Shown piece after piece: positions 6,792-51,983 of a DNA stretch of 64,000 nt. Position 1 is the stretch's first letter. Each line of letters begins with the position of its first letter. The notes below the pieces were generated by a model, which saw nothing but the letters and a program-made list of their open reading frames with translations, did not search any database and was not told where the DNA came from. The translations under genes and the position numbers were made by a program. Source of the stretch: a virus; the IMG/VR virus record IMGVR_UViG_3300017971_007885, positions 1-64,000 of that record. One strand, given 5' to 3'.

Positions 6792-7187
6792 ATGGAAGGG
6801 AATTTGCTTTTTGGGTTTGACCTGTTTGCGATCGTGTTGGCGATCTGGAAGTTGATCACAACGGAACTTTTCCCCAAGTTGTCAGAACGGTGGAAGCGTG
6901 CGATCTTGGCGTTTTTGATGACCGGGGTTACCGTTTTGATCGGGCTCCAGACCATGGGCCTCATCTTTCCGCCAGAATCACAGCCGGTTGTAACCCTTGT
7001 TTTGACGGCGATCATGGCATTCTTGGCCACTATGGGCTATAGTGCGGAAGTGATCGGCGTGGTCAATGCCACAGTGGACTTGGTGCGTTTTGCGGCGATC
7101 CAAAAGATTGCCGAACCCAGTATGATGGCAAAGGGTACGGAAGAGACGGTGCTAAAGCGCATGATCCGCTATCGGTTGCACAAGTGA
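6792..7187 (+). CDS. Holin-like membrane protein
   Basis: 131 residues with three hydrophobic stretches (about residues 4-24, 36-60 and 64-92) and a basic, charged tail ending RMIRYRLHK. Size, three predicted membrane helices and basic tail match a class I holin, which would pore the inner membrane for lysis, but no lysin is adjacent. The stop is overlapped by a GTG that opens a tagged protein in another frame. Confidence 0.6.
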   Translation: MEGNLLFGFDLFAIVLAIWKLITTELFPKLSERWKRAILAFLMTGVTVLIGLQTMGLIFPPESQPVVTLVLTAIMAFLATMGYSAEVIGVVNATVDLVRFAAIQKIAEPSMMAKGTEETVLKRMIRYRLHK

Positions 7188-7489
7188 CCGGCTCCGGCAA
7201 TTGGGGCCATCAGGGCCGCCCCGGACAACGGGGCGGCTCCATCCCACGGACTGAAGTGCACCCTATCTTCCGGTATGCTCAAGAACGATTATCAAAGCCG
7301 CCGCCGTGGCCGGACGTGATCGTGCTCAAGTCGGGGCTAAAAGTGCCGGTATGCCGGTGTGATGAAGTGTCAGAAGGCGTGATCTTGGTGGAAAATTGGC
7401 GGCTCATGGGTGCAATGTGGGATTTTAAGATGCTTATGCATGAACTTTGTGGGCCGTGTCCAGAAGAAAGGCAATGGACGAAATGTTAG
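7184..7489 (+). CDS. Small protein opening with the SGN capsid-type tag
   Basis: The GTG at 7184 overlaps the stop of the holin-like gene (GTGA). The product begins almost directly with the shared tag: GSGNWGHQGRPGQRGGS at residues 3-19, without the AWFxGW motif seen in the other tagged proteins. The remaining 80 residues have paired cysteines (CRCDE, CGPCPEE) that could bind metal. The tag may instead be a C-terminal extension of the holin-like protein reached by frameshift; I saw no slippery site. Confidence 0.55.
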   Translation: MTGSGNWGHQGRPGQRGGSIPRTEVHPIFRYAQERLSKPPPWPDVIVLKSGLKVPVCRCDEVSEGVILVENWRLMGAMWDFKMLMHELCGPCPEERQWTKC

Positions 7490-8531: not shown

Positions 8532-10423
8532 ACAATTGGCAGGTGCTTCCGGGGCACGTTTTGGAGTGGTTGCGAAAGTTGGCGGCGGGTAGTGTCAATC
8601 TGATTTTCACGAGTCCGCCATATTGGGCCTTGAGGGATTACGGGCTTCCGCCTTCAGTGTGGGGCGGCGATCCGAGTTGTAACCACGTATGGGGCGATCT
8701 TGTGCCGGGGGCGCATCCAAACCAGGTTGCCCAAACCAATACCCGACATTCAGACGCGGCGGCCAATGGCCAAATGGCCAAACGGGGCCAATTCTGTCAA
8801 AAGTGCGGGGCATGGTTGGGTTGTCTGGGGCTGGAGCCCGATCTAGACATGTTTATCAATCATTTGGTTGAGATCTTCAGGGAAGCACGGCGGGTGCTAC
8901 ATCCAAGCGGTACGCTCTGGGTGAACTTGGGGGATTCTTATGTAAGCAATCCTATAAGTGCCGGTGGTAAAAATGAGATCCGAACCGACGATCAAACAGG
9001 TGGCTTTCAAAGGGGGCATTCTAGGCGTGTGACCAGTCGTGGCAATGGGTTGAAGCCCAAAGACTTGATCGGAGTGCCATGGCGGTTGGCGTTGGCGCTC
9101 CAGGCGGATGGTTGGTGGCTAAGATCAGACATAGTGTGGTGCAAAGGTCTGGACCGGTCAGAGCAGGAGCTAGAGGCACAAGCGGAAGTGGAAGCGGCGC
9201 TTGCCATGGTGCGCCAGGCGGCCGGCGGAAGTCTCTTTGGATTATCAAAGCCACTAGATCAGGCTCTGAAACGGGCGGAAAAGGCTGTGGAACGGCTCTT
9301 TATGGTTGGGGCGACAATGCCCGAGAGTGTTAAGGATCGGGTCACCGCAAGCCATGAATACCTCTTTGTGTTTGCCAAGAGCAAAAAGTATCATTGGGAT
9401 AGGCATGCGATCCGGGTGTTGCCAAAACAGTGTAGTGTAGAACGGCGCTTGTATGGGCGGAGTGGCGATCACAAGCATACGGAAGGGGCTCCGGGCCAAA
9501 TGCCACATTCCTTTTTGATGGAAACAGAGATTGGTCAGGGACTGGATAACATGAATTCAGGGGGCCGCAATGCAAGAACGGTGTGGCGTGTGCAAGCCGA
9601 AGGTCACAAGCCCTTCATTTTGCCCGATGGTGAAGAGGTTGCCCACTTTGCCAGTTTCCCGAGAGCGTTGGCGGCCAGGGGGATCCAGGCCGGTACCTCA
9701 GAGCATGGGTGTTGTGCCACGTGCGGCGCTCCATTCAAACGGATTATCAAACCATCCGCCGCTTATGCCGAACTGCTAGGCCAGGACTGGGCAGATTATG
9801 AGCAGGACGCCAAAGAGGGCCGGGGTCATTCTGTAAGCAATCAACGAACCCAAAAGCGTGGGCCGGCGGCCACGGCGGAATACGAAACAACAGGTTGGGA
9901 ACCTACATGTAGGTGCCATGGCGCTCCAGAACCGGGGTTGGTGCCGTGCAAAAAGTGCAAGGGGACCGGGCAAAACCGGAAAGGCAAGAAGCGCCACGAT
10001 GATCATATGCCGGAAGAAGGCCAAAGGGAAAGTAAAAGCCGAGGCCATATCGGGAACTTGGGCAAGAATTCCATGGAGATCTTGGACGATCCATGCCCCA
10101 AGTGCAACGGTGCCGGACAGGTCCAGGGATGGGTATGGAACGAAGAGATTATCAAGGCGTGGCCGCTGAAAAGGCCAGTTGTGCTTGACACCTTTGCGGG
10201 AACAGGGCAAACGTTGCTTGCCGGGCTGGATCTCGGATGTGACGTGATCGGCATTGACTTGTCAGAAAGGTACGCCAGATTATCAAATGCCAGGTGTGAA
10301 GCGTGGCCGGAAGCGTTGCCCGAAAAAGGCAATGCCCGAGAAGAGAACGAAGCAGAAGCAATCCAACTAGAACTTGAACTAATGCGGGACGCTTCAGATT
10401 TTGAAGAGTTGGGGCTTCACTAA
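8528..10423 (+). CDS. Beta-class DNA methyltransferase with inserted zinc knuckles
   Basis: Residues 22-38 (SVNLIFTSPPYWALRDYG) carry motif IV SPPY, and the far C-terminal half carries motif I, DTFAGTGQTLLAGLDLGCDVIGIDLSERYA. This circular order (IV before I) is that of beta-class N4-cytosine or N6-adenine enzymes. At 641 residues it is long for the family. The middle holds three cysteine clusters: CCATCGAPF, CKKCKGTGQ and CPKCNGAGQ, the last two like the DnaJ zinc knuckles CxxCxGxG. These may form a target-recognition or partner domain. Confidence 0.85.
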   Translation: MNNWQVLPGHVLEWLRKLAAGSVNLIFTSPPYWALRDYGLPPSVWGGDPSCNHVWGDLVPGAHPNQVAQTNTRHSDAAANGQMAKRGQFCQKCGAWLGCLGLEPDLDMFINHLVEIFREARRVLHPSGTLWVNLGDSYVSNPISAGGKNEIRTDDQTGGFQRGHSRRVTSRGNGLKPKDLIGVPWRLALALQADGWWLRSDIVWCKGLDRSEQELEAQAEVEAALAMVRQAAGGSLFGLSKPLDQALKRAEKAVERLFMVGATMPESVKDRVTASHEYLFVFAKSKKYHWDRHAIRVLPKQCSVERRLYGRSGDHKHTEGAPGQMPHSFLMETEIGQGLDNMNSGGRNARTVWRVQAEGHKPFILPDGEEVAHFASFPRALAARGIQAGTSEHGCCATCGAPFKRIIKPSAAYAELLGQDWADYEQDAKEGRGHSVSNQRTQKRGPAATAEYETTGWEPTCRCHGAPEPGLVPCKKCKGTGQNRKGKKRHDDHMPEEGQRESKSRGHIGNLGKNSMEILDDPCPKCNGAGQVQGWVWNEEIIKAWPLKRPVVLDTFAGTGQTLLAGLDLGCDVIGIDLSERYARLSNARCEAWPEALPEKGNAREENEAEAIQLELELMRDASDFEELGLH

Positions 10424-10426
10424 CTC

Positions 10427-10455
10427 TTCCAAAGCGACCAAAACCATGGTATAAT
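10427..10455 (+). promoter_or_regulatory. Promoter of the tagged-protease array
   Basis: An extended -10, ATGGTATAAT with the hexamer TATAAT at 10450-10455, and a weak TTCCAA 17 bases upstream. Fourteen bases around the -10 (CCATGGTATAATGG) recur exactly at 42364-42377. It lies in the only gap before the protease array. Confidence 0.65.
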
Positions 10456-10464
10456 GGAGTATAC

Positions 10465-10494
10465 AACGTGATCTTTAGTTTTTGCGCAAAAACT
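10465..10494 (+). promoter_or_regulatory. Leader hairpin upstream of the protease array
   Basis: The perfect 18-base palindrome AGTTTTTGCGCAAAAACT (10477-10494) is followed at once by GAGG and the ATG at 10507. It would lie at the 5' end of the message from the promoter at 10450. Related elements occur at 22028-22050 and 33983-34030. It could stabilise the 5' end or control ribosome access. Confidence 0.5.
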
Positions 10495-10506
10495 GAGGTA
10501 TGAATA

Positions 10507-11709
10507 ATGGATAGACAAGCACGAAGGGCGTGGTTTGGCGGTTGGGTCGTGTTACGCTCCCTTGTGGAAAAGGGATCGGATACGTCTGGAAACTACTTCC
10601 ACAAGGGCATTCCTGGACAACGGGGCGGCTCTTTGCCAGGCGGCGGCCATAGAACGTTAGGCATATCCAGCATTAGCACGGAAGATGAAAAGCGGACTGC
10701 CATTGCCCACCACAGGCGGATGATGGCCAAAAAACGGGCTATGAAGAAGAAAAAGCCCACCCCCAAGCCGAAACCCAAACCGAAACCAAAACCAAAGCCC
10801 AAGCCAGCGATCGATCCAAACGATCCCGAGGCGATCATGGCGGCATTACTCGAAGGCACCAAAGGTCTTCAGGACCAACGGGAAAGTCTTCAATCTACAA
10901 TAGATCAACTAGACAAAGACATGGAGAAGTATCAAGAAGAATACGTGATGCCGATATCACGGCAGATGTGGAGTGCGGGATATAGAAGCCAAGAGTGGGA
11001 AAAACTTGCCAAAGAGATGGAGCCTCACAACGAAAAAATGGAGCAGATGCGCCAGGCCAAATATGCCGCTTTGCGTGAAAAAGGAGAGATTGAAACCCAA
11101 TTACGTGAAGATGGTCTAAAGTACCTGGAAGTGCCCAAGAGTCAGCAAAGCACGGTGCAATTGGATTTTGGCCGGTTGCGCAAAGGCAAGGCAGAAGCGC
11201 AAGCCGGGTTAGATATCTTTAATCGTTTGTGTGGTACCGGTACCGTGAACGGCAAAGTGGCGGGTGTGGCACGGACTTCTAGTAGAAGGGCGCATTATGT
11301 GCCCAATGCATTGGGGAAACTTGGCGTAAAAGAGCCTGGAAAAGTGGGATTATCAACCAAGAGCGGCAAAACCACGATGCTCCACGAGTTGGGCCATTGG
11401 TTTGAGGATAACGATCCCGAAGCACAAAGAAAGGCTTATGCTTTTTTGGACCGGAGAACCAAAGGAGAGCGCCCCCAACGGCTATCAAGGCTCATGCCCA
11501 ATTATCGGTTTAGTCGAAGAGAAGTTGCCAGGCCAGATCAGTTTATGAGTGCCTATGCTGGAAAAGTGTACGAATACGGAAGGCTTGGCCGGTACGCAAC
11601 CGAGATCATATCTATGGGGCTAGAAACGATGTTCACCGATCCGGTTGGAATGGCCAGGGAAGATCCGGATTATATGGGCTTTATGTTGAGCCTACTTAGG
11701 GGAAAATAA
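10507..11709 (+). CDS. Tagged zinc metalloprotease paralog 1
   Basis: 400 residues in four parts. An N-terminal AWFGGWVVLR; the tag TSGNYFHKGIPGQRGGS at about residues 25-41; a lysine-proline run (KPTPKPKPKPKPK) near residue 85 leading into charged coiled-coil helices; and a C-terminal zincin domain with HELGH at residues 293-297 and a likely third ligand E366 in ATEIISMGLE. HExxH proteases use the glutamate and a zinc ion to cut peptide bonds. It heads an array of six such genes. No signal peptide is seen, so entry through the capsid or action in the infected cell is more likely than export. Confidence 0.75.
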   Translation: MDRQARRAWFGGWVVLRSLVEKGSDTSGNYFHKGIPGQRGGSLPGGGHRTLGISSISTEDEKRTAIAHHRRMMAKKRAMKKKKPTPKPKPKPKPKPKPKPAIDPNDPEAIMAALLEGTKGLQDQRESLQSTIDQLDKDMEKYQEEYVMPISRQMWSAGYRSQEWEKLAKEMEPHNEKMEQMRQAKYAALREKGEIETQLREDGLKYLEVPKSQQSTVQLDFGRLRKGKAEAQAGLDIFNRLCGTGTVNGKVAGVARTSSRRAHYVPNALGKLGVKEPGKVGLSTKSGKTTMLHELGHWFEDNDPEAQRKAYAFLDRRTKGERPQRLSRLMPNYRFSRREVARPDQFMSAYAGKVYEYGRLGRYATEIISMGLETMFTDPVGMAREDPDYMGFMLSLLRGK

Positions 11710-11710
11710 G

Positions 11711-11974
11711 ATGATAGCTGTTGAGTTTATGCCAGGAGCGGCGGGCGAAATCGAGAAAGAGAAACTTGTAGCCGTGATCGATGGCTGGAAGTGGGCCAGC
11801 AAAAGCAAAAAGCTGGAAGATTACTTGAATGCGATGCTTGATCCGGATGGCCCAAGCGGTGCCGATCCACAACCGGAACGGACGGCGGTGGATATGGCGA
11901 TCAAAACACTCGGTGGTGGTAAGATTATCAAAGAAGACCAAGGCCCACCCCCGCCGGCCGGGGCCGTGCTATAG
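11711..11974 (+). CDS. Small array partner protein, copy 1 (87 aa)
   Basis: One base after the protease stop. It shares with three later genes the pattern VAVIdGWkWAS, a helix, LDPDGPSG, PqP, A-x-x-AI, GGGKIIK. All four sit directly after a protease gene, suggesting a dedicated partner: inhibitor or immunity protein, chaperone or second subunit. No catalytic motif or membrane segment. The conserved KIIK is encoded through the ATTATCA heptamer (11924). Confidence 0.7.
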   Translation: MIAVEFMPGAAGEIEKEKLVAVIDGWKWASKSKKLEDYLNAMLDPDGPSGADPQPERTAVDMAIKTLGGGKIIKEDQGPPPPAGAVL

Positions 11975-11983
11975 GAGCAGGTC

Positions 11984-13135
11984 ATGCGCACCGTGCAAGC
12001 GAGCAAGCAAGCCTTATACGCCTACCTTTTGGCCGCCTTGGTGGCCAAGGGATCGTCCACGTCTGGGAACTGGGGCCACAAGGGCGTGAAGGGAAGGCGG
12101 GGCGGGTCGGCTCCAGGCGGGGGCCATACTCAACTTGGGATCACGGGTACCACTTCACCGGGCGGCAAAGAGAAGATTATCAATCTTTACCGGAGGCAAC
12201 AAGCCGAAAAAAAGAAACCCACGGCGGAACAGGCACGGAACAAAATAGCCAGGATAGAAAGTGCTACCCAGGCCAAGATCGACAAGCTGAAGGCCAAACA
12301 GAAGGCCATCTTACAGGCGCGTGAAGATTACATGGACGATCATGGCCTAGAAGACCTTTACGATCGGTATAGGATTGCCAGGAGAGCGGAAGGGGCTGAA
12401 TCCGATCCGGACGTGATCGCTATGCGTGAAGAGATCGACCAACATGATGCGAACTTGAGCGACATGTGGGATGAACACCAAGCACTTGGCAAAGAGCAAC
12501 GGGCTCTTGAGAACGGCGCGAGAGAAGCAACCATGAAGGTGTTGGAAGTGCCCAAAGATCAACAAGCCAAGGTGCAATTGAGGACCAAAGATCCGACGAT
12601 CGAGAAAACAGCACAAAAGGGGTTGGATATTTTCAACCGGTTGTATGGTCGTGGTACTATGGATGGTACTGCGGTGACCGTGGATACTCATAACAGGTCA
12701 AGGGCCGGGTACGATCCCCTTGTACTCGGAGGAACAGGCCGGATCTTGCTTTACTCTTCAGGGCCGGGCATACTGACTTCAACATCTAGCGCCACATCTA
12801 TGCTTCATGAGATGGGTCATTGGTTGGAAGAGCGAGATCATGGCGTGTTCCAAAAGGCCAAAGCGTTCTTGTTGAGCAGGACGCAAAAAGATCCGGCTCA
12901 GAAAATGGCCGATCTAAAGCCGGATCGTGGGTATGCAGAATACGAAATCACAAGGCCGGACAGGTTTATAGATCCCTACGTTGGCCGGGCTTATGTCGAA
13001 CCAGGGGTGGGACACTATGCCACGGAAATAGTGTCTATGGGGATGGAACTCTTTTTTACCGATCCGGGCCAGTTTGCCAGGGACGATCCGGGCCACTTTG
13101 ACTTTATATACAACCTCATGAGGGATAGGCCATGA
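11984..13135 (+). CDS. Tagged zinc metalloprotease paralog 2
   Basis: 383 residues. The AWF motif has decayed (ALYAYLLAALVAKG) but the tag STSGNWGHKGVKGRRGGS is intact at about residues 24-41. A lysine/glutamate-rich helical stalk spans about 60-190. The zincin domain has HEMGH at 275-279 and the likely third ligand E348 in ATEIVSMGME. The domain start (GLDIFNRLYGRGTMDG) is common to the family. No small partner follows: the next protease start overlaps its stop. AGGAGC precedes the ATG. Confidence 0.75.
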   Translation: MRTVQASKQALYAYLLAALVAKGSSTSGNWGHKGVKGRRGGSAPGGGHTQLGITGTTSPGGKEKIINLYRRQQAEKKKPTAEQARNKIARIESATQAKIDKLKAKQKAILQAREDYMDDHGLEDLYDRYRIARRAEGAESDPDVIAMREEIDQHDANLSDMWDEHQALGKEQRALENGAREATMKVLEVPKDQQAKVQLRTKDPTIEKTAQKGLDIFNRLYGRGTMDGTAVTVDTHNRSRAGYDPLVLGGTGRILLYSSGPGILTSTSSATSMLHEMGHWLEERDHGVFQKAKAFLLSRTQKDPAQKMADLKPDRGYAEYEITRPDRFIDPYVGRAYVEPGVGHYATEIVSMGMELFFTDPGQFARDDPGHFDFIYNLMRDRP

Positions 13136-14280
13136 TCGATTATCATTCAAGGACAACGGCACTTGGTCCTAGACTGCGCTCCAAGTACAGGGCATGGTTT
13201 TTGGGATGGTGGGTGCTTGACGCTCCGGATGTGGTTGGTAAGGGATCGTCCAAGTCGGGCAATTGGAGGCACAAGGGCCGCAAGGGACAACGGGGCGGCT
13301 CCCTTCCAGGGGCTGGACATGGCGCGATCGGGGTGATGATAGGCGATACTCCAGAGCGAGTGGATGAGCAGATCCGAAGGCATAAAGAGGCCCAGGCGAG
13401 TGCTAAAGAGGCCAAGCGGGCACGGGCCAAAATGCTCCGGGACGTGGCTCCGATTATCAAACAAATATCAGCGGCCAAGGCCAGGGCGGCGGCTCTGGAC
13501 AAGCAACGATCCGAATTGACCACGGAACATCTTATGCCGCTTTATGACCAGATGCAGGAACTCAGAAGGGCCGGGCAACAAGATAGCGCCGAATACGCGG
13601 CGCTTCAGGAACAGGCCAAGCCCTATGAAGCACAAAAAGCCCAATTATTCAAGGGCTCTAGCTCAGAGCTAAACTATGCCAAAAACTTACAATTGGAGTT
13701 GCGAAACAAGGCGGTTGAAAGTCTATCCGTGCCTGAAGGGCAACGGGCCAACTTTAACTTAGACATTCAGCCGGGCAAAGACCTGGAAGATACGGTGGGC
13801 GTGGGTGCGCAAGTCTTCAGCCAATTGGTGGGCACCGGTACCATGGACGGCAAAACTTTGAAAGTGGTGGAAACGAACAAAAGCCGGGCCTCTTACAACG
13901 ATGGTACCAAAACCGCTTCTTTAACATCCTACTCCAAAACGGCTTCTGTGGTGCACGAGATGGGCCATTGGTGGGAAGATCACGACAAGCAAGCTTTTGG
14001 GAAGGCGCTTGCATTTTGGGAACGGCGCACCAAGCGGGAAAGCTTCCAACAACTAAACAAGATCTTTCCTCATGAAGGGTATCCCGATCACGAAGTCACC
14101 AAGCCGGACAAATTCATGGATCCCTACTCGGGCAAGGTGTACACAGAGGCGGGCAAGGGGATCACGGCTACGGAAATCCTGTCCGTGGGACTGGAAAAGA
14201 TGTATACCCATCCCGTGGCCTTTGCCAGGAACGATCCGGATTACTTTGACTTTATGTATAGCACACTGAGAGGTAAGTAA
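13132..14280 (+). CDS. Tagged zinc metalloprotease paralog 3
   Basis: 382 residues. The N terminus carries RLRSKYRAWFLGWWVLD, encoded partly by the dispersed 33-base repeat (13158-13190), then SKSGNWRHKGRKGQRGGS. A long coiled-coil stalk follows, with HEMGH at 275-279 and E348 in ATEILSVGLE. The gene overlaps its predecessor (ATGA) and is followed one base later by a small partner. The zinc ligands are all present, so activity is expected. Confidence 0.75.
   Translation: MIDYHSRTTALGPRLRSKYRAWFLGWWVLDAPDVVGKGSSKSGNWRHKGRKGQRGGSLPGAGHGAIGVMIGDTPERVDEQIRRHKEAQASAKEAKRARAKMLRDVAPIIKQISAAKARAAALDKQRSELTTEHLMPLYDQMQELRRAGQQDSAEYAALQEQAKPYEAQKAQLFKGSSSELNYAKNLQLELRNKAVESLSVPEGQRANFNLDIQPGKDLEDTVGVGAQVFSQLVGTGTMDGKTLKVVETNKSRASYNDGTKTASLTSYSKTASVVHEMGHWWEDHDKQAFGKALAFWERRTKRESFQQLNKIFPHEGYPDHEVTKPDKFMDPYSGKVYTEAGKGITATEILSVGLEKMYTHPVAFARNDPDYFDFMYSTLRGK
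13158..13190 (+). repeat. Dispersed 33-base repeat, single coding copy
   Basis: A single copy, differing at a few positions, of the unit tandemly repeated at 14565-14663. It encodes the residues just before AWFLGW. Related copies lie near 19313, 21102, 21236 and 36704. Confidence 0.6.
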
Positions 14281-14281
14281 C

Positions 14282-14542
14282 ATGGTTGCTGTAGAATTCC
14301 CTTTTGGCTGGAGCGATAAAACCCAGAAGCCGGGCACCGTGGCCGTGATCAAAGATTGGCGGTGGGCAAGCGAAGATGAAGCCTTTGAAGCTGTTTTGAA
14401 CGCTACGCTTGATCCGGACGGCCCAAGCGGCTCCATTCCCCAACCCGACCTATGGGCGGCTAACCAGGCGATCGAGCAGTTTGGCGGCAAGATTATCAAA
14501 CAGGAATTGCCCGAGTACCCGCCCAAGGGGATGATCCTATGA
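14282..14542 (+). CDS. Small array partner protein, copy 2 (86 aa)
   Basis: Follows paralog 3 after one base and overlaps paralog 4. Aligns with the 11711 protein over its full length: TVAVIKDWRWAS, LDPDGPSGSIPQPD, FGGKIIKQE. More acidic in the middle (EDEAFEAVLNATLD). Role inferred only from strict neighbourhood with the proteases. Confidence 0.7.
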   Translation: MVAVEFPFGWSDKTQKPGTVAVIKDWRWASEDEAFEAVLNATLDPDGPSGSIPQPDLWAANQAIEQFGGKIIKQELPEYPPKGMIL

Positions 14543-15783
14543 TTTCCAGAACCAGGAACGGCAGGGCACTTAGTCCTGAACTGCGCTCCAAGTACAGGGC
14601 ACTTAGTCCTGAACTGCGCTCCAAGTACAGGGCACTTAGTCCTGAACTGCGCTCCAAGTACAGGGCATGGTATTATGGTTGGCGTGTGGTACAACGGGGA
14701 TCGTCCAGGTCCGGAAACTGGGGCCATAAAGGCGTAAAGGGAAGGCGCGGGGGAAGTGCTCCGGGCGGCGGCCATAGGGTGATCGGCATTGGCCCAGAGG
14801 CTGAAGACTGGATGGTTGACACGGCTCTTTTAGAGTATCGCAAAGAGCGGGCCGAAAGAGCGGCCAGGAAAAAGAAGGGAGAAGGGCCAGAGCTCCGGCG
14901 CAAACTTGCTAAACAAGCTGAACAACAAGAAGCCAGGATCAAGGCTTATGGTGATGCAGCGGAAGCCGCATGGGAAACGATGAAGGGCCATGAGACGGCC
15001 ATGAATTCAGCGGCTAGAAACATCAAGTACATCAGGGAGCAAGGGCTATCCGAAGGGGCGCTTGAGGCGCAACGAGAAGTGTACTTTGCCGAGAAGGCGG
15101 AAGTGGAAAAATACTTGGGCATGTATCGGGAGTGGCGGGAAAAAGAATATGAACTTGGAAGAGAAAAGAATGCTGCCCAGATGGAACTTTTAGCCGTGCC
15201 CAAAGACCAACAAGCCAACGTCAAGCTGACCACCAAGATCCGCAAAGGTCGAGCGGAAGCCCAAGAAGGGCTTGATGCCTTTAACAAGCTTTGTGGAACC
15301 GGGACCGTGAACGGCCAAAAGGTGGAAGTGAAGCGCACCAATAGAAGCCGATCGTTTTACCGGGACAAGCTGACACGTACTTATGCCGGCTTTGGTGCCG
15401 GGGGCAAAGATATGACCGTGACGGTGGGCGGTGAAGTGCACTTGTCCAGTTGGAGCAGTGCAAGGACGATGATCCACGAGATGGGCCATTGGTTGGAAAA
15501 TCGAGATCCCAAGATCGCCAAGCGGGTCCAAAGCTTCCTTGCCAGGCGAACCAGGGGCGAAACGGCACAAAAACTATCTGTGCTAACCGGAGATTCAGCC
15601 TATAAAGCTTACGAAGTGGCCAAGCCCGACAAGTTCATGGATGCCTATGTGGGAAAGGTGTACGGCACCGGCTCCGAAGTGATCTCGATGGGACTGCAAT
15701 ACATGTTTAGTGGGGCGGCCAAGTTCGCAAAGCAAGATCCTGATTTCTTTGACTTTATGATCTCAGTGCTCAGAGGACAGTAA
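14539..15783 (+). CDS. Tagged zinc metalloprotease paralog 4
   Basis: 414 residues, the longest of the array because an 11-residue unit (ALSPELRSKYR) is repeated three times in its first 45 residues, just before AWYYGWRVVQ. Then SRSGNWGHKGVKGRRGGS, a charged stalk, HEMGH at 313-317 and a likely ligand E380 in GSEVISMGLQ. The usual YATE before this glutamate is replaced by TGSE, with a short deletion. Otherwise the domain is intact. Confidence 0.75.
   Translation: MISRTRNGRALSPELRSKYRALSPELRSKYRALSPELRSKYRAWYYGWRVVQRGSSRSGNWGHKGVKGRRGGSAPGGGHRVIGIGPEAEDWMVDTALLEYRKERAERAARKKKGEGPELRRKLAKQAEQQEARIKAYGDAAEAAWETMKGHETAMNSAARNIKYIREQGLSEGALEAQREVYFAEKAEVEKYLGMYREWREKEYELGREKNAAQMELLAVPKDQQANVKLTTKIRKGRAEAQEGLDAFNKLCGTGTVNGQKVEVKRTNRSRSFYRDKLTRTYAGFGAGGKDMTVTVGGEVHLSSWSSARTMIHEMGHWLENRDPKIAKRVQSFLARRTRGETAQKLSVLTGDSAYKAYEVAKPDKFMDAYVGKVYGTGSEVISMGLQYMFSGAAKFAKQDPDFFDFMISVLRGQ
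14565..14663 (+). repeat. Three tandem 33-base repeats inside a protease gene
   Basis: Three exact copies (14565-14597, 14598-14630, 14631-14663) in frame, each encoding an 11-residue unit. The same unit occurs once in paralog 3 and in the tagged zincin at 36690, so the expansion is local and probably recent. Confidence 0.9.
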
Positions 15784-15784
15784 A

Positions 15785-16045
15785 ATGATAGGCGTGCGCT
15801 TTGATGGACCATTATCAATCGAAGGGAAAAAGACCGGGCGGGTGGCCGTGATCAACGGTTGGCAGTGGGCAAGCAATGACAAAGCTTTTGAAGCCGCTCT
15901 GAATGCCGATCTTGATCCACAAGGGCCGGGCGGTGAAGTGCCCGATCCAGATATGCAAGCGGCGCAAGCGGCGATCAAACGATGGGGCGGTAAGATTATC
16001 ATTCACGAACCAAGGCCATATCCGCCCAAGGATGCCAAACTATGA
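15785..16045 (+). CDS. Small array partner protein, copy 3 (86 aa)
   Basis: One base after paralog 4, overlapping paralog 5. Pattern RVAVINGWQWAS, LDPQGPGGEVPDPD, WGGKIIIHE. It carries two ATTATCA copies (15811, 15995). The conserved LDP-GP-G loop suggests a structural turn or metal site. Function unknown. Confidence 0.7.
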   Translation: MIGVRFDGPLSIEGKKTGRVAVINGWQWASNDKAFEAALNADLDPQGPGGEVPDPDMQAAQAAIKRWGGKIIIHEPRPYPPKDAKL

Positions 16046-17139
16046 ATGAAGCAATCGGATGGTTTCATGGATGGTGGACAGTCCAGAGCCGGGGATCTCG
16101 CACATCGGGCAATTATGGCCACAAGGGCCGGAAGGGCCAACGCGGCGGATCGCTTCCAGGGGCCGGGCATACCACCATTGGCGTGACGCCGGCCATGTCC
16201 AAAGAAGAGATCGCGCAAGCCATTGACGCCCACCAAGAGGCCAGGGCCAAAGAAAAGGGCAAGATGGGACCGCTTATCCGCAAACGGTTGGAAAAAGTGG
16301 ATGCCAAGTATGAAGCCAGGGCTCTAGCACTCATGCAGGAGAATGGAGAGCTTAACTTTTCTCTCAGATTGCACCAAGACGAAATCACAAACCTGTACGA
16401 TATGCGGGAAAGGGTCAGGAAGCAGGGGGCGGGCCAAGCGTCGATCGACTTTTGGAGCGATCAGATAGAAAAAACATCCGCCAAGGGTGAAGTTATGTTC
16501 AACCGCTCCATTGAAGTGAGTCAGGAACTGCATGGCTTGCGCCAGGAACAACGACAAGCCATGCTTGATGTTCTCTCGGTACCCAAAAGCCAGCAAGCTA
16601 ACGTGACTATGGATACCCGGATCCGGCTCAACCGGGAAGGCGTGCAAAAGGGCGTAGATGCCTTTAACCAACTGGTAGGCACCGGTACCGTGGATGGCCA
16701 GAAGGTCAGCGTGGGGCGGACCAACGATAGAAGGGCTGCCTATGTGCCGATCGGCTCCCCCAAGAACTCGGGCCGGGTAGTATTATCAAAGGGCGATAGC
16801 GCCACGACGATGCTTCACGAGATGGGCCATTGGTTGGAAGACCGAGATCCCAAGATACACCAAAAAGCCCTTGCCTTCCTGGACCGGCGCACCAAGGGCG
16901 AAACGGCACAAAAACTTTCGATACTCACCCGCAATTCCAACTATAAAGACCGAGAGATCGCCAAGCCGGACAAATTCATGACGCCCTATTCAGGCAAGAT
17001 TTACGAACACAGCACAGCAGGACGCTATGCAACCGAGATCATTTCTATGGGGCTCCAGCATATGTATGTGGAAGCGGCCACGTTCGCAAAGCGAGATCCA
17101 GATTTCTTTGATTTTATGATCTCGGTGTTGAGGGACTAG
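16042..17139 (+). CDS. Tagged zinc metalloprotease paralog 5
   Basis: 365 residues, the shortest of the array. IGWFHGWWTVQ, tag TSGNYGHKGRKGQRGGS at about 20-36, a coiled-coil stalk, then HEMGH at 259-263 and E332 in ATEIISMGLQ. The block TGTVDGQKVSVGRTNDRRAAY is closest to paralog 4, as is KGETAQKLSIL, so these two may be the latest duplicates. Confidence 0.75.
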   Translation: MNEAIGWFHGWWTVQSRGSRTSGNYGHKGRKGQRGGSLPGAGHTTIGVTPAMSKEEIAQAIDAHQEARAKEKGKMGPLIRKRLEKVDAKYEARALALMQENGELNFSLRLHQDEITNLYDMRERVRKQGAGQASIDFWSDQIEKTSAKGEVMFNRSIEVSQELHGLRQEQRQAMLDVLSVPKSQQANVTMDTRIRLNREGVQKGVDAFNQLVGTGTVDGQKVSVGRTNDRRAAYVPIGSPKNSGRVVLSKGDSATTMLHEMGHWLEDRDPKIHQKALAFLDRRTKGETAQKLSILTRNSNYKDREIAKPDKFMTPYSGKIYEHSTAGRYATEIISMGLQHMYVEAATFAKRDPDFFDFMISVLRD

Positions 17140-17142
17140 ACT

Positions 17143-17400
17143 ATGATTGCCGTACACTTTCCTTTGGTATTCAAGGGCGATAAAACCAGGGCCGGACACG
17201 TGGCCGTGATCGACGGCTATAAGTGGGCCAGCAAACACCAGATGCTAGAAGACCTTTTGAACTCGAAACTTGATCCCGATGGACCACGGGGCGACGATCC
17301 CAACCCAGATGCCACGGCGGCACAAGCGGCAATCAAGCTTTGGGGCGGTGAGATTATCAAACAAAAGGCCAAACCAGAACCCCAAGGGGTGATCCAATGA
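17143..17400 (+). CDS. Small array partner protein, copy 4 (85 aa)
   Basis: Three bases after paralog 5, overlapping paralog 6. HVAVIDGYKWAS, LDPDGPRGDDPNPD, WGGEIIKQK. Same length and pattern as the other three copies. Nothing indicates a membrane location. Confidence 0.7.
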   Translation: MIAVHFPLVFKGDKTRAGHVAVIDGYKWASKHQMLEDLLNSKLDPDGPRGDDPNPDATAAQAAIKLWGGEIIKQKAKPEPQGVIQ

Positions 17401-18557
17401 ACCAAAGACAGGCAGGAGCGTGGTATCTCGGGTGGTTGGCGGTAAGGCCCACCGGGGTGGCCAAGGGCGTAGTCCTTGAACGAACGATCAAGGGATCCAG
17501 CAAGTCTGGGAACTGGGGCCACAAGGGCGTAAAGGGTAGACGTGGCGGTAGTGCTCCAGGGGCTGGACACGGTGCGATCGGGATAACCCCGGCCATGTCA
17601 CAAGAAGAGATTCAAACGGCGGTGGATGCGCAACGAGCCAGGACGGCGGCCAAAAAGAAACCGGCCACAGCCAAGGCTGCCAGGCGTGCGATTATCAAAC
17701 AAGATGATGCTTTGCGGGCCAAAGAACAGGCGTTGCGCCAGGCCCAAGAAGAATACATAAAAGAGCTTACAGCTTTTCGGGAAGAGTACACAAGCCCACT
17801 TATCAAACAAAAACTAGAGTTGTACGAAAAGGGTTACAGGCCAGGCGATCCCGAGATGGAAGGGGTGGAAGCTGAATTATCCAGGTACCGGGGGAAACTA
17901 GATGACATGTGGGCGGAACACGCCAGGCAGTCAACCGAAATCAAGGCTATCATGGACCAACGAAAAGAAGCCGCCCTTCAGGCTCTGGAACTGCCCAAAG
18001 ACCAACAGGCTGAAGTGGAACTTGATTTTGGAAACTTGCGCAAGGGCAAAACAGAGGCGCAAGCGGGCGTGGATGCCTTTAACCGGCTAGTGAGCAACCG
18101 GCTGGAAATGGACAACGAAGTGGAAGTCACACGCACCCAAGACAGCAGGGCATTCTATACGCCCTTTGGCTATAGCATAAATCCCGGTACCATCGGACTG
18201 GCAACCACTTCAGGCCGCACAAGTATGCTTCACGAGTTGGGTCATTGGCTGGAAGATCGAGATCGAAGCGTGCACACCAAAGCCCTGAATTTTCTCAACC
18301 GGAGAACGGCCGGCGAAAGCGCGATCAAGATGCGAGATGCCAGGCCAGGTATGGGCTACGACGATTACGAAATAACCAAAGTGGACCAATTTTCCAGGCC
18401 GTACATGGGCAAAGTCTATCAGTCTAAAAGCCGGGGCCACTATGCAACCGAGATCGTTTCTATGGGACTGGAAGAGCTTTACAAGGACGCCGCCAGCTTT
18501 GCCAGAAAAGATCCGGATTACTTTGACTTTATGTATAGCCTACTGAGGGGACAATAA
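17397..18557 (+). CDS. Tagged zinc metalloprotease paralog 6
   Basis: 386 residues. GAWYLGWLAVR at 6-16, tag SKSGNWGHKGVKGRRGGS at about 34-51, charged stalk, HELGH at 279-283 and E352 in ATEIVSMGLE. The substrate-side loop differs (VSNRLEMDNEVEV replaces the usual LVGTGTVDGQKV), which may alter specificity. Last member of the array; no small partner follows. Confidence 0.75.
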   Translation: MNQRQAGAWYLGWLAVRPTGVAKGVVLERTIKGSSKSGNWGHKGVKGRRGGSAPGAGHGAIGITPAMSQEEIQTAVDAQRARTAAKKKPATAKAARRAIIKQDDALRAKEQALRQAQEEYIKELTAFREEYTSPLIKQKLELYEKGYRPGDPEMEGVEAELSRYRGKLDDMWAEHARQSTEIKAIMDQRKEAALQALELPKDQQAEVELDFGNLRKGKTEAQAGVDAFNRLVSNRLEMDNEVEVTRTQDSRAFYTPFGYSINPGTIGLATTSGRTSMLHELGHWLEDRDRSVHTKALNFLNRRTAGESAIKMRDARPGMGYDDYEITKVDQFSRPYMGKVYQSKSRGHYATEIVSMGLEELYKDAASFARKDPDYFDFMYSLLRGQ

Positions 18558-22129: not shown

Positions 22130-22660
22130 ATGTCACCACAAAGCATAAATAACGGCAATAGAGAACATTGCTCCGGTCATCCCAGAAGCATAAATAACGG
22201 CAATAGAGAACATTGGTTGGGGATTATCATTCATCTAGATGCCCATGTCTACAAACTGGCATGGCAAAAGCTATATGGTAACCCACGGCAGTATAACCCA
22301 TTGCCCAAACTTGCCGATCCCACGATCACTAAAGCCTATCATGACGCCAAACACAAAATCATGCTCAATGAACTGTATGGCGTAAGAGGCTTTCCGGCAT
22401 TAGAACCCAAACCCACATACAACCAAGTAACCAATGCCCTACAAGCAAGCATAGCAGGGATACAAGCTTTCTATACCGCTATAGGGAATGCCATGATCCC
22501 GACCATGGAACGAATGACAGCTTCCTTTACTCACTTTGCCCAAAACCTCAACCAATGGGCCAATAACCCACTTGATATCAGAAGCCCAAGCCAAGAAACC
22601 ATAGACACGATCTTGGCCATGGCACCCGAAGAACCGGAGCAAACCCATGACAGGCCGTGA
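22130..22660 (+). CDS. Unknown protein with duplicated N-terminal nonapeptide
   Basis: 177 residues from the ATG at 22130 (AGAGG upstream). SINNGNREH occurs twice near the start through a direct repeat. The rest is helical (residues 95-150 amphipathic). A longer TTG start at 22037 would run through the leader hairpin and is less likely. Confidence 0.5.
   Translation: MSPQSINNGNREHCSGHPRSINNGNREHWLGIIIHLDAHVYKLAWQKLYGNPRQYNPLPKLADPTITKAYHDAKHKIMLNELYGVRGFPALEPKPTYNQVTNALQASIAGIQAFYTAIGNAMIPTMERMTASFTHFAQNLNQWANNPLDIRSPSQETIDTILAMAPEEPEQTHDRP
22141..22215 (+). repeat. 30-base direct repeat, two copies
   Basis: The 30 bases at 22141-22170 recur exactly at 22186-22215, a 45-base period. They lie at the start of the 22130 gene and encode SINNGNREH in frame. 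Confidence 0.9.
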
Positions 22661-23675
22661 TATTCTAGTGCTATGCCAATATCATCCCCAATTCCAAGAC
22701 TTTCGCCGCAAGTGGGAACTCGATTACGCCATGCGCCAACGTGCCCACTTTTACGAACCAGATCAAATGGCCGATCGCTTCGATCTGTCCTACTATCCAT
22801 GCCCCGATCGCTTCGATCTGTCCTACTATCCATGCCCCGATCGCTTCGATCTGTCCTACTATCCATGCCCCGATCGCCTTCACTTTTACCGTGGACACGC
22901 CCAACAGGTAAATGGTCGGATTGTAAACATCATTGCCCAAACCGGGACATGGTATCAAAGAAGGCACATTCATGATGAACTACTTGAAATCAGGCACTCT
23001 TGCCCAGAAGCAGAATGGATCAATGACACACAACCCCTTCACGTGTTTGCTATCAATGAAGCAGACTTTAGGGATTACTGCAATAGCCGTTTCTTGAACC
23101 CAAACGATGGCCATGAAGCTGTTTTTGTGTCGCCAGATTCTAGCCTATCGCCGGAAACATTCCATCAACGTTTCCCCATGGCACACTTTGACATGACTTA
23201 CCACTATCTGACCTCTGACAGACGCTCAACCCAATATGCTATGCGAGATTCCAGAAACACCCAAACAATACCCATGTTCGACAGCGATGGCCCAACGACA
23301 TGGGTCAATGTGCCAGGGGATACGCCAAGACCATCCATAGATGACATGATCGATGCCATGCGGGCAGGGGTCCAGGCTGTACAAGATACCCCATGGGGTT
23401 GGACTTCCTCTATAGAATGGCCCGAGTGGATAGAAACCCAAGATCGCGCATTTCTAGAAGGGCAGTTTCATACCCATACCCACATGAAGCACGTATGCAT
23501 AGAGATGCTAGAAGAGGTACACATGGGACGCACATGGGACTACTTTGCACAACGCAAAAGCCTTGCTCATTTGACGTGCTATCTTATGCACACACACAAG
23601 GTCAAAGTGTTATTGGCCAAGCACTGGGCTAAATCCTATCTGGACCTGTATAGGCTATGTGGGGGGCACTCATGA
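22647..23675 (+). CDS. Unknown protein with three 11-residue repeats
   Basis: 342 residues. Residues 42-76 are three exact copies of a unit of the form DRFDLSYYPCP. The rest is rich in histidine and aromatic residues. No family recognised. It lacks the ATTATCA heptamer, as does the whole stretch to 27.3 kb. Confidence 0.55.
   Translation: MTGRDILVLCQYHPQFQDFRRKWELDYAMRQRAHFYEPDQMADRFDLSYYPCPDRFDLSYYPCPDRFDLSYYPCPDRLHFYRGHAQQVNGRIVNIIAQTGTWYQRRHIHDELLEIRHSCPEAEWINDTQPLHVFAINEADFRDYCNSRFLNPNDGHEAVFVSPDSSLSPETFHQRFPMAHFDMTYHYLTSDRRSTQYAMRDSRNTQTIPMFDSDGPTTWVNVPGDTPRPSIDDMIDAMRAGVQAVQDTPWGWTSSIEWPEWIETQDRAFLEGQFHTHTHMKHVCIEMLEEVHMGRTWDYFAQRKSLAHLTCYLMHTHKVKVLLAKHWAKSYLDLYRLCGGHS
22771..22877 (+). 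repeat. 33-base tandem repeat, three copies and a remnant
   Basis: Copies at 22771-22803, 22804-22836 and 22837-22869, then the first bases of a fourth. In frame. The unit differs from the 33-base repeat at 14565. There are no unique spacers, so this is not a CRISPR array. Confidence 0.9.
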
Positions 23676-32360: not shown

Positions 32361-33779
32361 ATGGGTGCAGCGGATCTTGCTCCAAAAAACAAAGATGAGT
32401 TGCACAGTTGGATCAAGGCGTATCTTGGGCTTCACATTCCCAGAGTGCCGGTCTATCCTGGATCTTGCGCACCGTTCGATCTAATCTCGGATATCTATTT
32501 TAGGCGGGTACAAAGGGCGCTTGTATTGGCGTGCCGGGGCGGTGGGAAAACGCTCAATTTTTCATTACTCAACCTGCTACGTTCCAAGTTTCACGAGCGA
32601 TCGGGAACCGGCCATTTTGCAGCGGTGGAAGCACAAGGCGATTGGGGCATGTCCTATCTGAAGACGTGGCTCCAAAAGTCCTATCTTGCCCGTGATATCG
32701 TGAAGGATTACACGGATTACGTGGAGTGGGCCAACGGCTCATGGGTGCGCCGGGGCTCTGGGTACGCTACGAGGGGCGTTACTGCTTCCCACCCCAACCG
32801 ATTGGTGATAGATGAGGTGGACCTTTGGACGCCGGAGCAGTTTGAAACGGCTCAATTTATGGTGTCCGGGACCAAAGAGCATCCGCCCGAGACGTTGATC
32901 GCGTCTACCGCTTACACGGCACATGGCATGATGCTGTCCACATTGCTCCCACAGGCCAAGAAGCGCAATTTTAAGCTTTACCGGTGGACTGTCTTTGAGA
33001 CGTTGGAGCAGTGCCGCAAATGTCGGAAGGCCAAGTGCCCACTTTATCAATGGGAGCATCCACGGACAGGCCAGAAGGCGGCGCTATGTGGGGGTCGGGC
33101 ACTGCACAGTGATGGTTACGTGCCTTTGGACGTGGCCATAGATGAATACTACCGCACCGATGCGGATACTTACCTTGTCCAGAAGCTTCTAGCGGCTCCA
33201 GAGCGTCAACATTTGATCTATCCCAGATTTTTGCCCGATCTTCACGCTCCAGGGCCACCCCCGGAAGACGTAAAGCGGTATGGCCAATACGGGATCGGGG
33301 TTGACTGGGGGTTTGATCATCCCTTGGTGTTTACCGTCTTTGCCGAAATGCCCAACGGGGTGTACTGGGGCATAGAAGAGCATGGGGAACGGTTTGCGAC
33401 TCCGGATCGTGAGGTCGAGATAGCCAAGGATTTTCAAGCCAAGTACGGGGTGGAAGTGCCTTTTTATTGTGGCAAGGATCAACCCAAGAGCATCCAGGCA
33501 TTCTATGAGGCCGGGCTTGTCGTGATCCCCAACTTGGTAGATCGGCGGGACGATGGGCACCGTTATGTCAGGCGGCTTATGGATCCCAACAAGGGGCCGC
33601 TTTTGTACCTTGATCCGGATGAGATGCCCGCCACGGTGCACCAACTTGGGGCTATCCATCGGAACGATCGGGGCAAAGAAGTGCTCAAGGACAACGATTT
33701 TGCCGACTCTAGCCGCCACGTTCTTGCTTCAGCGCAAGAGGCCGGGGGCATTCAGGCGGGCGGGGGATTTATGGTATGA
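32361..33779 (+). CDS. terL: Terminase large subunit
   Basis: Walker A ACRGGGKT at residues 57-64, Walker B RLVIDEVD with D151-E152, and the RNase H-like nuclease start GIGVDWGFDHP with D315. A cysteine pair (CRKCRKAKC) lies at the hinge. The 472 residues are normal. The enzyme pumps DNA into the prohead and cuts it. The downstream acidic residues lie near LYLDPDEMP and DNDFADSSRH. Confidence 0.9.
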   Translation: MGAADLAPKNKDELHSWIKAYLGLHIPRVPVYPGSCAPFDLISDIYFRRVQRALVLACRGGGKTLNFSLLNLLRSKFHERSGTGHFAAVEAQGDWGMSYLKTWLQKSYLARDIVKDYTDYVEWANGSWVRRGSGYATRGVTASHPNRLVIDEVDLWTPEQFETAQFMVSGTKEHPPETLIASTAYTAHGMMLSTLLPQAKKRNFKLYRWTVFETLEQCRKCRKAKCPLYQWEHPRTGQKAALCGGRALHSDGYVPLDVAIDEYYRTDADTYLVQKLLAAPERQHLIYPRFLPDLHAPGPPPEDVKRYGQYGIGVDWGFDHPLVFTVFAEMPNGVYWGIEEHGERFATPDREVEIAKDFQAKYGVEVPFYCGKDQPKSIQAFYEAGLVVIPNLVDRRDDGHRYVRRLMDPNKGPLLYLDPDEMPATVHQLGAIHRNDRGKEVLKDNDFADSSRHVLASAQEAGGIQAGGGFMV

Positions 33780-34785: not shown

Positions 34786-35486
34786 TGTACATCAACGAAG
34801 TTGATCTTGCCAAGCTCACCGTGCGCGTGGAAGGATCTCCGGGCTCCATTCTATCATTCTTTACCGGGGCGTATCCCGAGTTATACATGCCGCTCCAGCG
34901 CATGCATGGGATCAAGAGCCAGGTTGGTTTACATCAGGCGTGTGCTCTTGTTTTGCTTGCCCGCCAGTTTGCCGGAAAAGAGGCGGCGATCTTAAACATC
35001 GGATGTGCTTTTGGCTATAGCACGGCTTGCCTTGCGGAAGGAGCTCCAGACGCTGACATTGTAAGCCTGGATGTGGCTCCAAAGCGGATCAAGCTTGCAA
35101 AGAAGGCGCTTGTCAGGTATCCCAACGTGAAAGTGCTTCAGATAGCATCTTGGGACTTCTTTTTGCCCAATGCCGGCCGGTTGTGGGATATGATCTTTGT
35201 GGATGGATGCCATAGGGCGATCTGGAAGGATATGCCATTTTACAACACGGTCAGGCCGGGCGGGCTTTTTATGTCCCACGATTACATACCGGCCCGCTTT
35301 CCCTTTGTGGTGGAAGCGTTGGACAGCCTCAAGGAGCAGTTTGGCCGCCTTTATGATGTGCGGATCTACGACGATCGGGGATGTGGCGTGGTCGGCATGG
35401 TCAGACAAGAAGGCGAAATGTGGCAGATGCCAAAGGGTTATCAATGGACAGAAGAAGCGGTGCGTGGTTTCAAGGGTGGCTTGTAA
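34785..35486 (+). CDS. Class I SAM-dependent methyltransferase
   Basis: LNIGCAFGYSTACLAE (about residues 70-85) is the SAM-binding loop; VSLDVAPK has the acidic residue at D96; DMIFVDGCH resembles the O-methyltransferase strand 4. Likely acts on a sugar or small molecule rather than DNA. It starts at the last base of the sulfotransferase stop, suggesting joint action. Confidence 0.7.
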   Translation: MYINEVDLAKLTVRVEGSPGSILSFFTGAYPELYMPLQRMHGIKSQVGLHQACALVLLARQFAGKEAAILNIGCAFGYSTACLAEGAPDADIVSLDVAPKRIKLAKKALVRYPNVKVLQIASWDFFLPNAGRLWDMIFVDGCHRAIWKDMPFYNTVRPGGLFMSHDYIPARFPFVVEALDSLKEQFGRLYDVRIYDDRGCGVVGMVRQEGEMWQMPKGYQWTEEAVRGFKGGL

Positions 35487-35977
35487 CCAAAAAGGGGGCG
35501 GATACATCCGGAAATTGGCGGCATAGAGGCACGCCGGGAAGCGTTGGCGGATCGTTGCCAGGTGGTGGCCACGGATTGATCGGCATTGGAGCAGATACCC
35601 CGCCGGCCATGGCCAGTGATTTGGTGCACGAATACCGGAAAAATCAGGTGCGCAAGCGAGAGCTTGAAGAAAAGATGCGCAAAGCAGAAAGGGCGAAGCC
35701 GGGCGAAGCGCCGGCCGGAGAACCCAAGGGCCAGTTACCACCCGAAATCACTCAAAAAGAATCCAAGTTCACGGCCAAGGATCTGCGGGGGCTCAACAGG
35801 GAATGGGGCCACAAGATCCGGCAGTGGAAGCGCCGGGTGGATCAAGTTGTGGTATGGCTGAAAGGGGGCTGGATCGGCAGACCTGAAGTAAAAAGCCGGA
35901 TCGGGGCCATAAGGCAGGTCATGCAAGCGGCGCAAGAAAGACATGACAAGAAGATGAAGGAGTTTATGGCCAAATGA
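35444..35977 (+). CDS. Tagged head-module protein A
   Basis: 177 residues from the ATG at 35444. It begins GAWFQGWLVTKKGAD, then TSGNWRHRGTPGSVGGS. The rest is charged and helical with no enzyme motif. The start overlaps the end of the methyltransferase gene by 43 bases. Probably an internal or scaffold-associated head protein. Confidence 0.65.
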   Translation: MDRRSGAWFQGWLVTKKGADTSGNWRHRGTPGSVGGSLPGGGHGLIGIGADTPPAMASDLVHEYRKNQVRKRELEEKMRKAERAKPGEAPAGEPKGQLPPEITQKESKFTAKDLRGLNREWGHKIRQWKRRVDQVVVWLKGGWIGRPEVKSRIGAIRQVMQAAQERHDKKMKEFMAK

Positions 35978-36693
35978 ATAGCATACAGGCTTGGTTTAAT
36001 GGTTGGGTGGTCACAAAGGCCCATGGTCCTTTGGCCCATGGACAAAAGGGCTCCGACACGTCCGGGAATTGGCTCCACAAGGGTCGTAGAGGGAAAAGGG
36101 GCGGATCTTTGCCGGGCGGGGGCCATAAAACGCTAGGAATCGCCTCAGACGCTACGCCAGCGGAGATCAAGGATGAAGTGGCTGCCAGGCGTGAAGAGCG
36201 AAAGGACAAAAAGCCGGACCAGGGGCCGCCGATCGCGCCGGGCAAGTATATCCGGGCCAAAGCGGGCGTGTCTGGGGGAAAGGTCGTCAAGGAGATAGAC
36301 TATCTGGGCACAAAAGACGCTTACTTGGTCCAGATCCGCAATGGGGATCTCGTGGCATTTTCCAAGAAAGTGCCCCATGAAGAGATAAGCAAGGATCAAG
36401 CGATCCGCCAGGGTTTTGAAGCGCCAAAGGCCCATAAGCCCAGTCCGCCGCCCAAGAAATTGCCCAAGGGCGCATCATTTTACGCTCAGACGACAACCCA
36501 ACTTGGAAAGGAATTTGCCCACAAGATCCGATTGGTTCAGGGGGCCGTGAATAGGTTACAGGCCAGATTATCAAGCGGCAAGGGCAAAACGGCCAATATA
36601 GAGCGGGATCTTAGGCGATATGCCAGGCTGGCTACAGCCATTCGAGAAGAGTATAACCGATTGCTTGATGAGTTTTCAGGGGCCGGGGTATGA
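35974..36693 (+). CDS. Tagged head-module protein B
   Basis: 239 residues: QAWFNGWVVTK, an alanine/histidine spacer, TSGNWLHKGRRGKRGGS, then a small beta-rich domain (DYLGTKDAYLVQIRNGDLVAFSKKVP) and a C-terminal helix pair. No HExxH. The domain with YLVQIRNGDLVAFS is echoed in the next gene (ATYQWIGTSGKKFVAFSQ), so B and C share a second module. Confidence 0.65.
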   Translation: MNSIQAWFNGWVVTKAHGPLAHGQKGSDTSGNWLHKGRRGKRGGSLPGGGHKTLGIASDATPAEIKDEVAARREERKDKKPDQGPPIAPGKYIRAKAGVSGGKVVKEIDYLGTKDAYLVQIRNGDLVAFSKKVPHEEISKDQAIRQGFEAPKAHKPSPPPKKLPKGASFYAQTTTQLGKEFAHKIRLVQGAVNRLQARLSSGKGKTANIERDLRRYARLATAIREEYNRLLDEFSGAGV

Positions 36694-51344: not shown

Positions 51345-51983
51345 ATGTTTGTGGCTTATGGTCAGAAAGCGATCCAATGTTTCTATGATTGTGCGGAATC
51401 GCTCCGAGTGCATCACCCGGATATGCCTATAGTGGTGATCGGGGATCAATCAATCGTTTTCCCGAATTGCACGTGCCTACAGGAGCCAAGCACCGATATC
51501 GGAGCCAGAAGCATCAAGACTCAGATTTGGCGGTATGTACCCGATGGTTGGACATATGCGCTATACATGGATGTTGACACACTTGTATTGAAACCGCTAG
51601 ATCGTTTCTTGCAACCATTGCTTGACGGTTGGGAACTGGTTATGGTCCGGGATGAGTTGGCGGATGTAGTGGATCGGTGCCGACTCAAGAACAATGAAGA
51701 AAAGCAACACATCAAGAACGCTTTTGGGACCGGGGAACTAGTCCAGTTTGCGGGCGGTTTGTTTTCTTGGCGTATATGCCCAACAGTGCAACGTTTTTTC
51801 GAGATATGGCATGCAGAGTGGGGCCGTTTCAGCTTCAGGGATCAAGGGGCTTTGGTGCGGGCCTTGGCACTTACGCCGGTCAAACTTTGGCCACTCGGAT
51901 GGGCGGCCAATGCTTCCAAACGAGAGCATGCGATCGAAGTATGGCATATACACGGCAAGGCCAGAATGGCAGGTGCTCAATGA
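51345..51983 (+). CDS. Glycosyltransferase, GT-A (GT8-like)
   Basis: 212 residues from the ATG at 51345 (AGGGG upstream). YALYMDVDTLVLKPLDRFL has the DxD metal motif (residues 76-78) with the following PL, and QFAGGLFSW and WHIHGKA fit the GT8 layout. Transfers a sugar from a nucleotide donor. Ends overlapping the tagged protein start. Confidence 0.75.
   Translation: MFVAYGQKAIQCFYDCAESLRVHHPDMPIVVIGDQSIVFPNCTCLQEPSTDIGARSIKTQIWRYVPDGWTYALYMDVDTLVLKPLDRFLQPLLDGWELVMVRDELADVVDRCRLKNNEEKQHIKNAFGTGELVQFAGGLFSWRICPTVQRFFEIWHAEWGRFSFRDQGALVRALALTPVKLWPLGWAANASKREHAIEVWHIHGKARMAGAQ

Follow-up and report, generated by a model that had tools for sequence, protein, structure and literature searches.

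Six tagged zincin metallopeptidases with small partner genes in a tailed phage: putative effectors carried in the phage head

The IMG/VR virus record IMGVR_UViG_3300017971_007885 comprises 100,482 bp of a tailed environmental phage; we analysed its first 64 kb (the window, in whose numbering coordinates are given unless the record is named), which contains an array of six paralogous genes, P1 to P6, for tagged metallopeptidases with a predicted zincin domain, interspersed with four paralogous small genes, S1, S3, S4 and S5. The order on the plus strand is P1-S1-P2-P3-S3-P4-S4-P5-S5-P6. The P genes are located at 10507–11709 (P1), 11984–13135 (P2), 13132–14280 (P3), 14539–15783 (P4), 16042–17139 (P5) and 17397–18557 (P6), and their products of 365–414 amino acids show pairwise identities of 35–46%; P1 to P4 were assigned from open reading frame (ORF) and motif alignment, P5 and P6 from ORF, motifs and predicted fold. 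The S genes, at 11711–11974 (S1), 14282–14542 (S3), 15785–16045 (S4) and 17143–17400 (S5, which also has a predicted fold), encode about 86 amino acids (87, 86, 86 and 85, respectively) and share 46–53% identity with one another. Between neighbouring genes there is a 4-bp overlap or a gap of 1–9 bp, and a GA-rich, ribosome-binding-like stretch precedes each of them. A preliminary description of the locus had rightly recognised the six tandem tagged genes and their intact active-site motifs; it did not mention the S genes.

All six P proteins contain the motifs HE[LM]GHW and [AG][TS]E[IV]xS[MV]G, in which the H, E and H of HExxH and the second Glu are invariant. Loss of zinc ligands in relatives, against which the preliminary description had proposed to check its claims, was not found: among 96 non-redundant relatives all readable cases keep HExxH (93 of 93) and the Glu (95 of 95), figures that carry some ascertainment bias because the viral scan partly selected for zincin motifs, the genome scan using patterns without HExxH. 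The AlphaFold2 model of P6 (predicted local distance difference test, pLDDT, 88.7) begins with a helix at residues 3–16 and the disordered tag at 18–57, followed by two long helices (92–144 and 152–197) and, from about residue 200, a mixed alpha/beta domain of zincin-like fold, with HExxH on the helix 274–288 and E352 at the start of the helix 353–371. The layout of tag, long helical region and zincin proposed earlier is therefore retained, with the correction that the supposed stalk is a helical hairpin. With HExxH, a downstream Glu and an alpha/beta fold, the P proteins have the features of zincins (gluzincins) and are predicted to be enzymes. Searches of Pfam, NCBIfam and PDB sequences gave no family matching the zincin domain, and its matches to solved structures are weak (best, the zinc metallopeptidase 4l7a, E 0.08; astacin, E 0.65); a fold search with full-length P6 was dominated by the hairpin.

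Relatives of the zincin are found in phage head proteins. It matches PHROG_19443, "minor head protein" (E 2e-11 to 2e-6), and its fold matches in BFVD are annotated as "phage head morphogenesis". MuF minor head proteins carry it as their C-terminal domain in Flavobacterium pippi8-1 gp28 (with Phage_Mu_F), Bacillus BboS-125 gp68 and Lactococcus 62503 gp31 (tblastn), and Streptococcus prophages encode a MuF-zincin by similarity (tblastn). The metagenomic loci L010–L013 show terminase, portal and then MuF-zincin (MuF judged by position and sequence pattern), the three parts being fused as portal-MuF-zincin in L012. By homology, these matches identify the array zincin as the same domain as the MuF C-terminal domain of other phages. 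A further locus, L099, encodes a MuF-tag-helix-zincin, then a free tag-helix-zincin and then an S-like gene, an arrangement which stands midway between fused and free zincins; a small gene usually lies 3' of MuF-fused zincins too. Pfam Phage_Mu_F was searched for and matched neither the P proteins nor anything else in the 100-kb record, so the array is not a MuF protein, though MuF-toxin-like in its proposed working. Judged by eye, intein-like insertions are present in the zincin-bearing portal-MuF protein of L012 (4419–8837) and the MuF protein of L099 (3121–6537).

To characterise the S genes we considered the 96 non-redundant zincin genes, three of which lie at a contig end and 93 of which have room downstream. 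An ORF of 60–112 amino acids is found next to the zincin gene, −36 to +90 bp downstream, in 77 of these 93. Of these 77 ORFs, 45 have exactly [IV][YF] as their last two residues, compared with 3 of the 193 remaining small ORFs of the loci (Fisher p 1e-26). A single S profile recognises 47 of the 77, and every one of its matches (71/71) lies at most 160 bp from a zincin end, a few being encoded on the other strand and converging with the zincin gene. When 2.9 million viral contigs were scanned independently for an S motif, seven places emerged, five of them true S genes; all four with room adjoin a zincin, two in convergent orientation. These counts establish the pairing of S and zincin genes at the level of gene order. 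Since convergent copies still stay close, S appears to be needed together with the protease beyond any translational coupling, as expected of an inhibitor or immunity gene. Distances among zincins and among their S partners are correlated (r 0.48 over 47 pairs, 0 of 2000 permutations), to which shared phage ancestry contributes, and also inside the two arrays (r 0.79, 35 of 5040 permutations). The zincin alignment misplaces the last ~33 residues of many rows. The P5 zincin and S5, modelled with AlphaFold as one predicted chain through a single in-frame TAG, are both confident domains (pLDDT 92; predicted template modelling score, pTM, 0.79). S probably restrains its protease; the residue pattern fixed at its C-terminus points to a function of the free end, and we hypothesise that this tail enters the zinc cleft.

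The tag, present in all six P proteins as ...SGN[WY]xHKGxxGxRGGSxPGxGH, is carried by 11 ORFs of this phage, five of which the preliminary description had not listed. Three of these five are consecutive in the head module downstream of a terminase-like (TerL-like) gene at 32361–33779, at 35381–35977, 35974–36693 and 36690–37727 (all plus strand), the last with a HEIGH motif and no match to the P-family profile, indicating a different metallopeptidase-like protein; the others are a short ORF at 7184–7489 and an ORF near glycosyltransferase-like genes at 51767–52999, both also on the plus strand. A tblastn search with the bare tag gave no match, probably because of low-complexity masking, and viral contigs were therefore scanned for the tag with a DNA pattern. 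This yielded at least 151 tag matches in at least 80 loci, the window included, with up to five tags in one protein. Pfam assigned to 62 tagged proteins among the matches listed portal (11 matches, two families), MuF (4) and DUF2213 (5) domains, as well as ADP-ribosyltransferases (ARTs; 8 + 2), NUDIX, topoisomerase IB, Zeta toxin, Ntox50, Gln amidase, CdiA_C and others; PHROGs adds a head maturation protease and Bxa ART. The proposed search for the same tag on other cargo was thus productive: in scores of other phages the tag precedes or separates portal, MuF, ART and toxin domains, and it marks head proteins and effectors. An address or a processing site would suit the way it stands at the N-terminus of free cargo and recurs ahead of every module in fusions. 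Multicopy zincins, another point proposed for checking, occur in 11 of 16 tagged vs 1 of 85 untagged loci (some tagged loci are near-duplicates), the copy number ranging from one to six. The tag string was not found in the literature searched, and both the tag and the S tail look undescribed so far.

A comparison of P3 to P6 with their presumed orthologues in a related locus (L009) showed the zincin to be under purifying selection (w 0.07–0.27) and the helical region to vary most (23–67% identity; w 0.17–0.49 where measurable). The P5 zincin is only 59% identical to its positional counterpart, making recombination among copies likely. Diversification of targets, as previously suggested, is partly supported, with no sign of positive selection having been seen between these presumed orthologues.

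The spacing of the genes bears out the tight operon described before. A sigma-70 scan found no promoter before the array; a perfect extended −10 element, TGGTATAAT (10447–10455, plus strand), was recognised by reading the sequence and was missed by the scan because its −35 is weak. Four extended −10 sites of this type occur in the 64-kb window vs 1.3 expected, and one promoter for the whole array, as claimed earlier, is plausible, not proven. Upstream of P1 lies a 16-bp perfect palindrome, GTTTTTGCGCAAAAAC (10478–10493), a candidate operator, the 14-bp core of which recurs at 76511, 87403 and 94038 of the record.

Because the tag is common to other phage proteins and the protease domain is homologous to domains fused to head proteins, the P proteins are most likely packed into the head and ejected. 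We consider that the array encodes six MuF-type metallopeptidase effectors, diversified and carried as head cargo, together with cognate inhibitors; freed from MuF, the effectors would be addressed by their tag and ejected with the DNA. We give this reading a probability of about 60%. Each P protein would consist of a short N-terminal helix, a disordered address tag, a helical hairpin and a zincin, with the tag replacing MuF in bringing the enzyme into the prohead. In the producing cell S, translated right behind the protease, would bind and block it, its constrained C-terminal tail perhaps reaching the zinc site. At infection the proteases would leave the head with the DNA, unaccompanied by S, and would cleave proteins of the host, with takeover or counter-defence as the most likely purpose; docking or the choice of substrate may depend on the variable hairpins. 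Loading into the head by the tag, inhibition by S, ejection and host targets are thus steps which we infer.

Several observations weigh against this. The link of the P proteins to the head, and with it the loading and ejection proposed in the preliminary description, is one of association: the evidence is indirect, namely that a homologous domain is fused to MuF and portal proteins and that portal, MuF, ART and toxin-domain proteins bear the tag. The tag also lies between domains of portal and MuF fusions that are already in the head, where its role may be that of a linker or processing site and not of an address. P2 and P6 are not followed by an S gene, and the S tails of this array end in VL, IL, KL and IQ, not in IY or VY. 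The array adjoins a DNA methyltransferase gene and is about 20 kb away from the terminase/portal region. MuF toxins have been reported from temperate phages only, and no tyrosine integrase was found in the 100-kb record, which is possibly incomplete and in which serine integrases were not searched for.

The position of the tag within fusions is also the starting point for a different view: the tag would serve as a linker or a site of cleavage, and cargo would be freed in the head or in the cell when the zincins, or else the head maturation protease, cut the proteins that bear it. The occurrence of up to five tags between the domains of one polypeptide, the tags at the junctions of portal and MuF fusions, and the proposal that zincin metallopeptidases of polyvalent proteins, giant polypeptides, are autoprocessing domains acting on their own chains (Iyer 2017, PMC5512222) would agree with such processing; those zincins, compared by description only, resemble the P proteins as HExxH peptidase domains in phage-delivered proteins. 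We nevertheless regard processing as unlikely, given that most MuF-zincins and the cysteine-tagged zincins of PaV-LD type lack the SGN tag, that most tagged proteins lie outside the zincin family (among the 151 tag matches listed, 14 tagged ORFs do match the family), and that it would be odd for a single conserved site to have six divergent proteases.

Slightly less probable again is that the P proteins are early intracellular effectors or anti-defence proteases, made after entry and never packaged, with S as a regulator or antitoxin. The array has its own promoter-like site and palindrome and lies apart from the head module, beside the methyltransferase gene, which would suit early expression, whereas the same tag on head-module ORFs here and on portal and MuF proteins elsewhere, and the physical fusion of the homologous domain to head proteins, speak against it. 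A role as capsid maturation or scaffold proteases, the other function suggested before, seems very improbable: it could draw on the head association of the domain and on the helical region of P1, which weakly matches Phage_scaffold (E 0.03), but relatives encode ClpP/HK97-type head proteases separately, the fold and location of the P proteins differ from those of a ClpP/HK97/S78-type head protease beside the major capsid gene, and neither one to six copies, six of them here, nor an S partner nor a variable helical region fits such a role.

Among known systems the head-cargo reading places the array closest to the MuF polymorphic toxins, a group with 20% metallopeptidases in which 89.4% of members have a small putative immunity ORF behind them (Jamet 2017, PMC5576092); two immunity proteins are proven for one MuF ART toxin (PMC11699363). 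The likeness lies in a peptidase domain of homologous type, C-terminal in the toxins, a small downstream ORF, and proposed head loading and ejection; in place of their immunity gene the array has a putative inhibitor gene, S, after four of six P genes. The array differs in lacking MuF in the P proteins and the genome, in its N-terminal tag and six copies, and in that no tyrosine integrase was found. The free zincins ORF080 and ORF081 of Planktothrix phage PaV-LD (L014) resemble the array in being tandem, followed by an S gene (ORF082) and near head genes, and differ in having a different cysteine-rich tag and fewer copies. ORF081 and ORF085 are labelled "virion structural protein" and "minor virion protein" in the deposit, and work by Gao and colleagues in 2012 is said to report PaV-LD virion proteins by mass spectrometry. 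The PaV-LD tag, CxxxxxYNCGxxCIxxxxxC, is found on ORF078, 079, 080, 081 and 085, which include the zincins and ART-like proteins (ORF079 and ORF085), and is independent of, and analogous to, the SGN tag. The internal proteins and Alt of T4 are targeted to the capsid and injected; the idea of a short N-terminal address bringing several unrelated effectors into the head is shared, with no homology claimed. The array tag differs from theirs in sequence and has no known cleavage site, and we know of no S partner of the T4 internal proteins.

More tentatively, and with some doubt, the tag SGNxGHxGRxGxxGGS could be a portable, MuF-independent head address used in many unrelated phages for a mixed arsenal of zincins, ADP-ribosyltransferases, toxin nucleases, NUDIX and topoisomerase IB, free or concatenated, and S a new family of zincin inhibitors whose C-terminal end plugs the active site. 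The ejection of phage enzymes with the DNA would then become testable from sequence, with the tag flagging candidate cargo in many uncultured phages; S genes would supply specific inhibitors for an uncharacterised protease family, and a tag that truly addresses the head would offer a ready route to load chosen proteins into phage capsids.

Further features of the genome include a tape measure gene at 59656–63717 and, 3' of P6, a gene resembling a "GTP-binding domain" PHROG. At a place corresponding to the tagged ORFs after the terminase-like gene, the locus L201 (terminase 97% identical) encodes five tagged ORFs, two of them extra, indicating a variable cassette. Other tagged peptidase types, with HExGH-type motifs (HEIGH..EDFAE; HEYGH) and outside the P-family profile, are encoded at 36690–37727 of the window and at 10551–11681 and 11811–12869 of L201, and the ORF at 9725–10573 in the variable cassette of L201 is tagged and contains a ParB/sulfiredoxin-like segment, KHRAKAALEQGA, judged by eye. 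The N-terminus of P4 contains 3.2 perfect in-frame 33-bp tandem repeats (RALSPELRSKY; 14562–14667), one related copy of which lies at the N-terminus of P3 (13173); 3.2 perfect 33-bp tandem repeats are also present in the ORF at 22647–23675 (22771–22877). The repeated perfect palindrome TTTTTGCGCAAAAA (record 10478, 76511, 87403 and 94038), of which one copy lies just 5' of the array, is a possible operator, and an element of type GTTTCCTGACATGAAGCTGACA is repeated in the right part of the genome, at 77531, 82358, 84377, 86399 and 91195 of the record.
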